Shown here: positions 837 through 44,679 of the stretch, in pieces
How positions within the stretch are numbered: the first letter of the stretch is position 1
How the letters are laid out: every line of letters begins with the position of its first letter
DNA from: an uncultured Maricaulis sp.
GTDB taxonomy: Bacteria; Pseudomonadota; Alphaproteobacteria; Caulobacterales; Maricaulaceae
Assembly: GCF_947259345.1 (NCBI RefSeq)
Contig: NZ_CAMYLS010000033.1
Coordinates: forward strand, 62,001-126,000
Reading direction: 5' to 3'
Length of the DNA stretch: 64,000 nucleotides
Position numbers and translations under genes: made by a program
Notes under the pieces: generated by a model
The model's input: the letters and a program-made list of their open reading frames with translations, nothing else
Database searches by the model: none
What the model was told of the DNA's origin: nothing

Positions 837-932
837 TCAGGCCGCGCCGAGAACCGATCCCCACATGGCAATCATCCAGGCGAAGCCGAGAACGGCAGTC
901 GCAGCAGACACATCTTGAACAACACGGCGCAT
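837..932 (-). CDS. sidA: SidA-like SOS-induced small membrane protein (31 aa)
   Basis: This short gene encodes a 31-residue protein that starts MRRVVQDVSA and ends GSVLGAA. A basic N-terminus precedes one hydrophobic segment (about residues 9-31, with two tryptophans in WMIAMW). ATG at 930-932 has a GGGGAG ribosome site about seven bases upstream. The promoter carries two perfect alphaproteobacterial LexA sites (separate entry). In Caulobacter, SidA is a 29-residue inner-membrane division inhibitor induced by DNA damage that acts on FtsW/FtsN, and to my knowledge its gene lies directly upstream of dnaE, as here. Size, single membrane span, LexA control and position all agree, so I infer a SidA orthologue. 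I could not align it with the Caulobacter sequence. The alternative is an unrelated SOS-induced membrane peptide. Confidence 0.75.
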   Translation of the reverse strand: MRRVVQDVSAATAVLGFAWMIAMWGSVLGAA

Positions 933-952
933 AACGCTCTCCCCAATCGCGA

Positions 953-1014
953 GTTCTGCTTTTGTTCTATTGCGGCACAACGCAGGCGTCAAGAGGAATG
1001 TTCCAATTTTGTTC
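953..1014 (-). promoter_or_regulatory. SOS promoter with two LexA boxes upstream of the sidA-like gene
   Basis: Two GTTC-N7-GTTC sites, the alphaproteobacterial LexA operator, lie at 953-967 (GTTCTGCTTTTGTTC) and 1000-1014 (GTTCCAATTTTGTTC). On the minus strand a good promoter sits between and within them: -35 TTGACG (992-987), a 17-base spacer, and -10 TAGAAC (969-964). The proximal box overlaps the -10 element and the distal box lies just upstream of the -35, so bound LexA would block polymerase. Transcription would begin about 25 bases before the ATG at 932. The sites fall between the end of lolD and the small gene, so they serve the small gene and perhaps dnaE. Confidence 0.85.
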
Positions 1015-6458: not shown

Positions 6459-6797
6459 CTAGTAAGCGCCAGACGGCATGAACGGCTCCAGAACGCCGCT
6501 CTCATTAACGATGAAATAGATGATCCAGACGGTCGAAGCCGCCACGGTCGACCACCACATCTTCCGCGTCAGGTTTGGAGACTGTGGCGCACCACGCTCA
6601 GACCCCTCAACCACATCCCCCGCCTCTTCCTGCGAGCGCACGCCGATCGGCAGCATGGTGAAAAAGAAGAGCCACCAGACGATCAGGAAAACCACGACGC
6701 CATTCACGACGCCAACCCCGCCATCGCGGATGAAAAAACCGGAGAGCCAGAGCAGGCCGGCGATCGCGACCGGCGCGCGTTTGAGCCAGTCCATCAT
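6459..6797 (-). CDS. DUF1467 family small membrane protein
   Basis: This 112-residue protein has three hydrophobic segments: about residues 9-22, 28-52 (VVNGVVVFLIVWWLFFFTMLPIGVRSQ) and 86-98. The middle segment followed by LPIGVRSQEEAGDVVEGSERGAPQSP is characteristic of the DUF1467 family, found almost only in Alphaproteobacteria. Its function is unknown. The start overlaps the stop of mce by 4 bases (ATGA), so it is translationally coupled to it, and it is the last gene of the nuo-birA-coaX-rnj-mce unit. I recall mce and DUF1467 genes being neighbours in many alphaproteobacteria, so the pairing is conserved though unexplained. Confidence 0.85.
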   Translation of the reverse strand: MMDWLKRAPVAIAGLLWLSGFFIRDGGVGVVNGVVVFLIVWWLFFFTMLPIGVRSQEEAGDVVEGSERGAPQSPNLTRKMWWSTVAASTVWIIYFIVNESGVLEPFMPSGAY

Positions 6798-38227: not shown

Positions 38228-38262
38228 ACAAAAATGGCCGGAGAAAACGTCTCCGGCCAAGA
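38228..38262 (-). terminator. intrinsic terminator of lon
   Basis: On the minus strand TGGCCGGAGA-CGTTT-TCTCCGGCCA (38259-38235) is a perfect 10-bp stem with a 5-base loop, followed by TTTTTG. It lies about 30 bases after the lon stop codon and separates lon from the pheA leader region. Confidence 0.88.
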
Positions 38263-38290
38263 TTGTTTCAAATGAAACGACTTTCAGCGC

Positions 38291-43101: not shown

Positions 43102-44679
43102 CTACGCGTCCTTCTTCGCAGCCGCCTTCTTGGCCGGAGCCTTCTTGGCAGGCGCCTTCTTCGCGGTCGGCTTCTTCGCGGCGGCCGTATCGTCTTTCTT
43201 GGCAGCGGCTTTCTTCGCCGGAGCTTTTTTCTTCGCCGCCGGCTTGGTCTCGGCAGCCGCCTCGTCTTTCTTGGCAGCAGCCTTCTTGGCCGGAGCCTTC
43301 TTCTTGGCAGCAGCCTTCTTGGCCGGCTTGGCCGGAGCGTCGTCCTCGTCCGCGTAGAGTGCGTCCCTGGAAACCTTGGTCTCGGTCACTTCCGCCAGCT
43401 CGAGGATGTAGTCGACGACTTTTTCCTCATAGATCGGCGCGCGCATCTGGGCCACGGCATTCGGGTTCTTCTGATAGAACTCGACGACCTGACGCTCCTG
43501 GCCCGGATACTTCACCGCTTCCTGGTTGATGGCGCGGGACAGTTCTTCCTGGGTCACATCGATATTGTTGCGGCGACCGATCTCGGCCAGCACGAGGCCC
43601 AGACGGACACGGCGCTCGGCAATCTCGCGATACTCGCCCTTGAGCTCGTCTTCCGACTTGTTCTTGTCTTCTTCTTCGAGGTGATCGTGCTCGATGGCAT
43701 GAGCCACTTCGCGCCAGATATTCTCGAACTCGGCCTCGACCATTTTCGGCGGCAGGTCGAATTTGTGCTCGGCGTCCAGCTTGTCGAGGAGGTCACGCTT
43801 GACCTTCATGCGCGACTGCTGGGCATGCTCGCCCTCGAAACGCTTGCTCAGCGCCTCTTTCAGGCTATCGAGATTCTCCAGACCCAGGCGCTTGGCCAGC
43901 TCGTCATCGACCTTGGCGTCCTCCGGGGATTCGAGACCCTTTACGGTCACCTCGAACACGGCAGCCTTACCGGCCAGTTGCTCGGCCTGGTAGTTTTCCG
44001 GGAAGGTGACATTGAGCTCGCGCTCCTCACCGACCTTGGCGCCCAAAAGCTGATCTTCAAAGCCCGGGATAAAGGCACCATCGCCGATGGCAACGCGCGC
44101 ATCTTCGGCCGAACCGCCTTCGAACGCTTCGCCGTCAAGCTTGCCGACGAAATCAATAACGACGACATCGCCATCTTCCGCCTTGGCATTCTTGCCGCCC
44201 TTCTTGGCCGCAAACTCCCGGCTTTCATTGGCCAGACGCTCGAGCGCCTCATTGACTTCAGCGTCCTCGACCTCGGCGACCGGACGGGTCACCGACAGCT
44301 TGGCCGGATCAGCCGGCTCGAAATCAGGCATGATTTCTAGGGCGATCTCGAAGACAAAGTCGGCCTTGCCACCGAGCACGTCCTTGGCTTCGCTGGTCAC
44401 CGAGATATCGGGCTGCGATGCCGGGCGAAGCTTTTTCTCGTCGAGTGTCTTCTGCGTGGTCTCCGGAACCAGCTCATTGAGCAGGTCGCCCATGATGCTT
44501 TCGCCGAACATCTTGCGGATGTGGCTGGTCGGCACCTTGCCCGGGCGGAAACCCTTCAGGCGGACTTCCGGGCGAATCTCTTCGATCTTCGCAGACAGGC
44601 GAGCTTGCAGATCATCAGCCGGGATGACGATCTCATAGGTGCGGCTCAAGCCTTCGGAGGCTTTCTCGATGACGTTCAT
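43102..44679 (-). CDS. tig: trigger factor with an 80-residue Lys/Ala-rich tail
   Basis: Trigger factor is the ribosome-bound chaperone and peptidyl-prolyl isomerase that meets new chains at the tunnel exit. The 525-residue protein has the ribosome-binding domain with GFRPGKVPTSHIRKMFG (signature near residues 44-60), an FKBP-type PPIase domain (GDVVVIDFVGKLDGEAFEGGSAEDARVAIGDGAFIPGFEDQLLGAKVGEERELNVTFPENY) and the C-terminal chaperone domain. Usual length is about 430-450. Here the last 80 residues (446-525) are an extra low-complexity tail of AAKK/APAKKA repeats, like histone H1 or HU-type tails. The tail is in frame and codon use matches the rest. It may strengthen RNA or ribosome binding. 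Confidence 0.95.
   Translation of the reverse strand: MNVIEKASEGLSRTYEIVIPADDLQARLSAKIEEIRPEVRLKGFRPGKVPTSHIRKMFGESIMGDLLNELVPETTQKTLDEKKLRPASQPDISVTSEAKDVLGGKADFVFEIALEIMPDFEPADPAKLSVTRPVAEVEDAEVNEALERLANESREFAAKKGGKNAKAEDGDVVVIDFVGKLDGEAFEGGSAEDARVAIGDGAFIPGFEDQLLGAKVGEERELNVTFPENYQAEQLAGKAAVFEVTVKGLESPEDAKVDDELAKRLGLENLDSLKEALSKRFEGEHAQQSRMKVKRDLLDKLDAEHKFDLPPKMVEAEFENIWREVAHAIEHDHLEEEDKNKSEDELKGEYREIAERRVRLGLVLAEIGRRNNIDVTQEELSRAINQEAVKYPGQERQVVEFYQKNPNAVAQMRAPIYEEKVVDYILELAEVTETKVSRDALYADEDDAPAKPAKKAAAKKKAPAKKAAAKKDEAAAETKPAAKKKAPAKKAAAKKDDTAAAKKPTAKKAPAKKAPAKKAAAKKDA

Follow-up and report, generated by a model that had tools for sequence, protein, structure and literature searches.

The 64,000-nucleotide stretch of DNA analysed here (the window) carries, directly before dnaE, a 31-codon gene that we read as an orthologue of Caulobacter sidA by position and a remote homologue of it by sequence, most likely encoding an SOS-induced inhibitor of cell division. 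We give this reading a probability of roughly three in four. That a real, conserved micro-gene lies here under LexA-type boxes is confirmed, while LexA binding, induction by DNA damage and a division phenotype are what we infer for it from the sequence.

The coding sequence occupies positions 837-932 on the minus strand (31 codons plus stop; ATG 932-930, stop 837-839). Its 31-residue product, MRRVVQDVSAATAVLGFAWMIAMWGSVLGAA, has a single hydrophobic stretch, a predicted membrane span with a best 19-residue Kyte-Doolittle mean of 1.70 over residues 13-31. A Shine-Dalgarno-like GGGGAGAG (937-944, minus) stands 4 bases 5′ of the ATG, and a G/A-rich run is seen by eye at the same position in all 18 genus loci. 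The first-pass annotation had described a 31-codon gene with a ribosome site and a single membrane span, and this description holds.

Three genes follow one another on the minus strand. The upstream gene (1037-1726, minus), which we take by recognition and not by search to be a lolD-like ABC ATPase gene, runs from 1726 to 1037, followed by the 31-codon ORF (932-837) and by dnaE (from 740). The window holds the 5′ end of dnaE (3-740, minus), which extends past the window edge; its DNA_pol3_alpha domain lies just beyond, at G000:C33:61058-61852 on the minus strand. The 96-base gap between the micro-gene and dnaE (741-836, minus) contains a GC-rich hairpin without a T-run (z -2.23), and a terminator scan found no terminator-like site within it.

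The promoter consists of a -35 element TTGACG (987-992, minus) and a -10 element TAGAAC (964-969, minus) separated by a 17-base spacer. A proximal LexA-type box GAACAAAAGCAGAAC (953-967, minus; GTTC-N7-GTTC on the plus strand) overlaps the -10 element, and a perfect distal box GAACAAAATTGGAAC (1000-1014, minus) lies just 5′ of the -35 element. A third perfect box (1011-1025, minus) has one GTTC in common with the distal box and is poorly conserved: among the other 17 genus loci, a one-mismatch counterpart is found in L009 alone. The promoter and its perfect boxes are therefore as originally annotated, except that the boxes number three and not two. A general promoter scan returned 0 sites at the locus because it demands that the second hexamer end in T at position 6, where the window has C.

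Based on counts, the window has 5 perfect GTTC-N7-GTTC matches compared to a shuffle mean of 1.67, and three of the five are at the sidA-like locus. The other two (6480-6494 and 44111-44125, both minus) are at about chance level. At genome density, 0.0037 perfect boxes are expected in 180 bp and the probability of two or more is around 7e-6, overlapping boxes not being independent. The whole 3.25 Mb genome contains 67 perfect boxes compared to 57 for a reversed control pattern, and a single box is consequently weak evidence genome-wide. Conservation of the promoter, the boxes and the codons is stronger evidence than the box count.

This conservation is extensive within the genus. A search of 61 genomes with the 31-residue query gave matches at E<=7.3e-10 in 18 of the 19 genus genomes, the only one without a match being G013, which is 65% complete. 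Some match at E<=10 was found in 35 of the 61 genomes, the weak ones not all being meaningful. Over the 18 genus sequences (one of which, G016, encodes a peptide identical to that of the window), pN/pS is 0.23, and variation affects 24/30 third codon positions compared to 17 first and 6 second positions. Loss of the 31 codons in close relatives had been named at first pass as grounds for giving up the gene; the codons are kept. Upstream, 17 of the 18 genus loci, window included, keep the promoter together with a perfect box whose start falls within the -10 element, the exception being L006, and 14 of these 18 have at least two perfect boxes within 140 bp.

The same box is found elsewhere in the window genome next to lexA and what look like other genes of the SOS response. 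The genome's lexA (G000:C33:38340, plus) has a perfect box in front of it at 38251-38265. We inspected 20 regions around boxes, picked from the 67 perfect ones, and found SOS-type N-termini beside the box in five: LexA (L300) and, named by eye and not by search, what are presumably RecA (L299), UvrA and SSB (L291), RuvC (L290) and a UvrD-like helicase (L295). The remaining 15 of the 20 regions showed no clear SOS gene by eye, L302 being a possible one. In L302 (G000:C37:1100-3100) a perfect box lies between an ORF that by eye looks like SRAP/YedK and a divergent, possibly ImuA-like ORF. Since the box precedes lexA and SOS-type N-termini adjoin boxes, GTTC-N7-GTTC is very likely the local SOS operator.

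The link between sidA and dnaE, which the first-pass annotation had put forward for Caulobacter, can be verified in the known genes. In C. vibrioides DSM 9893 (L151), which serves as the reference here in place of the laboratory strain NA1000, the 29-residue SidA is followed by dnaE 41 bp downstream and has boxes in front. A scan of named genomes with the Caulobacter SidA alignment gave named loci for 80 of 98 relatives (9 of the rows begin one codon past the annotated start, with a match from residue 2). In 79 of these 80 Caulobacteraceae-type loci dnaE lies within 600 bp downstream, at a gap of 21-132 bp; the record of the 80th (L193) ends 45 bases downstream. Likewise, 79 of the 80 have a box that is perfect or off by a single base, and the record of L184 starts 24 bases upstream.

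The window gene and its relatives occupy the same place. Among the best 30 of the 40 matches listed, window included, dnaE follows on the same strand at 30/30 loci, and an upstream box with 0 or 1 mismatch is likewise present at 30/30 (perfect in 27). A lolD-like gene lies upstream in 26 of these best 30. The gap to dnaE is 15-297 bp in 29 of the 30 loci and 1,268 bp in L006. In the other genus loci the gap is about 60-270 bp, and the promoter of L006 lies farther upstream.

To cover the order by position, the regions before dnaE were taken from 40 of 60 order genomes belonging to five families (f1 to f5, f1 being the family of the window). A small membrane ORF whose box has 0 or 1 mismatch precedes dnaE in 12/12 genomes of f3, in the single f1 genome taken and, in a strongly diverged form, in 10/10 genomes taken from f5 (12 drawn; L085-L094). 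Of the 7 f4 genomes taken, 2 have it; the other 5 of 12 f4 genomes have a profile match, with the dnaE neighbourhood checked for two (G047, G051). None of the 10 regions taken from f2 (12 drawn; L075-L084) has such an ORF. Perfect boxes lie just before dnaE in 26 of the 40 regions compared to 0/39 at control positions 900-1500 bp farther up.

A wider profile search of 299 order genomes listed 60 f1 genomes, each with a best E<=0.011, some of them having supplied the profile; placement is confirmed only at the loci fetched, and the 35 genomes without a match are left out of the listing. In genus g28 (Caulobacter, family f3), a SidA match at E<=2e-6 was found in 72 of 75 genomes.

Position and regulation are shared with sidA; similarity in amino-acid sequence is more remote. 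NF033228, the NCBIfam SidA equivalog model with a curated cut-off of 35 bits, scores the C. vibrioides DSM 9893 SidA at 72.4 bits. It fails to match the window protein and has no hit at E<=10 in the whole window genome, which leaves the window gene outside the equivalog. Two f3 peptides of genus g21 fall below the cut-off too (20.5 and 24.6 bits). A Caulobacteraceae-only profile run on whole genomes recovers the locus in 0/19 genus genomes at E<=10, and produces weak matches elsewhere in 13 of the 19. L001-L030 include 28 f1 loci; run within the dnaE locus, the same profile puts the ORF first in 22 of these, at low scores, a count that leaves out repeated genomes as well as L044-L046 and L050-L054, in which the ORF is unrecognised. 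At the window locus the ORF comes first with 6.1 bits; the profile does badly in L011, L021, L024, L027, L029 and L030.

Three other comparisons point to common ancestry. First, when the six-frame ORFs of the 80 named loci are scored with the f1 profile, the SidA ORF comes out on top in all 80 (4.9-19.6 bits). Second, hhalign aligns the window-family and Caulobacteraceae profiles with a probability of 95.4% and a score of 32.8, which 0/200 shuffles reach in either of two control sets (all but the first two columns shuffled, maximum 15.9; span columns only, maximum 21.8). Third, a bridging peptide, MSRIVHDALSLVSVTGFVWMMCSVAHLVG (L210/L212), is matched by the f1 profile at 19.5 and 19.6 bits, and L210 scores 50.9 bits with NF033228. 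Aligned directly, the window peptide and C. vibrioides SidA are identical at 9 of 29 positions, which shuffles reach in 0.4% of cases. The SidA-like identity first suggested for this ORF, to be checked by alignment with Caulobacter SidA, is thus supported by the profile-profile comparison with its shuffle controls and by the bridging peptide, even though NF033228 and the single-profile whole-genome search miss the window gene. We consider the gene very likely to be homologous to SidA.

As a member of a wider SidA family, the window gene has about 30 residues (31) with one predicted span (1.70 over 19 residues), putative LexA-type boxes at its promoter, a position adjoining dnaE, and a homologous sequence according to hhalign and the bridge, although single-profile whole-genome search fails. 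The features in common with SidA also include an N-terminus that is charged and has D/E as residue 7, and a GF-x-WM core. Besides escaping NF033228 and keeping only 9 of 29 residues, the window peptide differs in having W at residue 24 and another second half of the span.

Next, we looked beyond the order with one genome per family of the class. Besides that of the window, 54 such genomes had dnaE; 40 were taken, giving 38 usable loci. A perfect box together with a small membrane ORF lies just before dnaE in 6 of the 38 loci compared to 0/38 in the control window, and perfect boxes alone in 8 of the 38 compared to 1 in the control window. The remaining 32 of 38 loci have no such gene before dnaE, and the sidA-like gene is therefore not general in the class. 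With a combined order profile, L278 (family f8) scores 32.6 bits, L250 10.6 and L256 10.5, compared to 5.3 for the best of 172 unrelated ORFs. We also considered L249, L270 and L275 as SidA-like peptides and set them aside, their sequences not being separable from background. The L278 type is found in 3/3 f8 genomes, each time before dnaE with a box. The L256 type matches at E<=0.0062 in 16 of 19 f14 genomes; for the 12 of those 16 with loci given, dnaE is downstream and a perfect box lies at most 190 bp upstream of the match in 12/12. In G384, a similar peptide is encoded at the end of one contig and dnaE at the end of another, both ends carrying the same short repeat. In families of other orders, the loci with SidA-like peptides and boxes before dnaE are L306-L308, L314-L325 and L250, with L309 at a contig end.

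The published target of SidA offers a further comparison. According to PMC4211646, the FtsW substitutions F145L and A246T suppress overproduction of both SidA and DidA in Caulobacter, and A31K suppresses SidA and not DidA. Each genome has two PF01098 hits, and we took the one with the lower score as FtsW, a choice that tblastn with the C. vibrioides protein returned in 15/15 genomes (40-100% identity compared to about 28-32% for the other hit, a SEDS protein, presumably RodA). The C. vibrioides DSM 9893 protein so chosen has A31, F145 and A246 at the published numbers. Residue 145 is F in 8/8 genomes with a close SidA-type peptide (four of f1 including the window, three of f3, and G047 of f4) and L in all 7 remaining genomes of the 15 examined. 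Three of these seven have no peptide before dnaE (G082, G041, G049) and four, namely G043 and the three f5 genomes, have a strongly diverged one. The combined profile served to tell close peptides from diverged ones: the G047 peptide scores 14.4 bits with it, an f5 peptide 4.4 and that of G043 3.4. Both f2 genomes whose FtsW was inspected carry L145. At residue 246, T is found in the three f5 genomes, and the 12 others have A. The three f5 proteins inspected thus combine L145 with T246, both of which suppress SidA in Caulobacter. Because the families are not independent, the apparent tracking of the SidA-type peptide by residue 145 is a lead and not proof.

These residues bear on whether the window gene, as a SidA homologue, could have moved to another target, such as FtsN or FtsI instead of FtsW. 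Such a switch would fit the second half of the window peptide, which is unlike SidA, the profile alignment stopping at column 22. It would also fit FtsW residue 31, which is variable (A in Caulobacter, V in the window). Nevertheless, these lineages, the window included, retain F145 and A246 in FtsW, and we regard a switch as unlikely.

By the mechanism we favour, that of a SidA-type division inhibitor, LexA would occupy two direct-repeat boxes flanking and overlapping the promoter. RecA-stimulated cleavage of LexA on DNA damage is established SOS biology, and here it would open the promoter. The 31-residue peptide, predicted to span the inner membrane and to have a short, charged tail at its N-terminus, would then keep FtsW/FtsI/FtsN, the septal synthase complex, from becoming active, which is what SidA does in Caulobacter. 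Division would be on hold until repair allows LexA back. dnaE, 96 bases downstream on the same strand, may share the promoter.

A LexA-controlled single-span peptide of about 29 residues is also known in TisB, a type I toxin with an antisense RNA. Accordingly, one could imagine that the window gene encodes an SOS-induced small membrane toxin of this kind, depolarising and growth-slowing, and SidA-like only in size and regulation; division inhibition by the window gene is, after all, the conditional part of our reading. This is quite unlikely, as the profile similarity to SidA is far above shuffles and the position before dnaE is that of true sidA. Positions 600-1200 have no Rfam match at E<=1, a result that leaves room for an antisense RNA of unknown kind. 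Least probable is that the ORF is a leader or SOS promoter module for dnaE, with a LexA promoter that mainly lifts the replicase and an incidental peptide: dnaE is indeed next on the same strand in all of the best 30 of 40 matches and 21-132 bp away in 79/80 named Caulobacteraceae-type loci, with no terminator-like site in the gap of the window, but the amino-acid sequence and not the frame alone is conserved, the gap ranges from 15 to 1,268 bp, and sidA has a demonstrated division role in Caulobacter (PMC4211646).

SOS-induced division inhibitors are also described in Gram-positive bacteria, namely YneA and SosA, which we liken to the window gene by partial descriptions only. Both are longer proteins encoded at other loci. 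In Caulobacter itself, DidA is likewise a small membrane division inhibitor acting on FtsW/I/N; unlike the window gene with its LexA-type boxes, it is SOS-independent and induced by DriD (PMC4211646; likened by description only). The titles and abstract openings listed, mostly without subscription full texts, contain no announcement of SidA outside Caulobacter that we could find (literature cited, in part, besides PMC4211646: PMC12700426, PMC13384398 and PMC4117421).

Tentatively, and at somewhat less than even odds, SidA may be an old alphaproteobacterial SOS checkpoint gene and not a speciality of Caulobacter. It would have been fixed before dnaE under LexA control and be present across several orders, while some lineages would have lost it or let it diverge strongly. 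It would also evolve with its target, with FtsW residue 145 being F in the presence of a close SidA-type peptide and L, which is SidA-resistant in Caulobacter, where the peptide is absent or diverged.

A division inhibitor that NCBI's model here recognises only in Caulobacter-like sequences thereby becomes findable by its place and its promoter. Searching by position before dnaE together with GTTC-N7-GTTC reaches across the order and beyond, where NF033228 misses. The natural FtsW variants are offered for testing how a peptide of 30 residues blocks the septal synthase, and the arrangement raises the question of why the replicase gene should go together with a brake on division.
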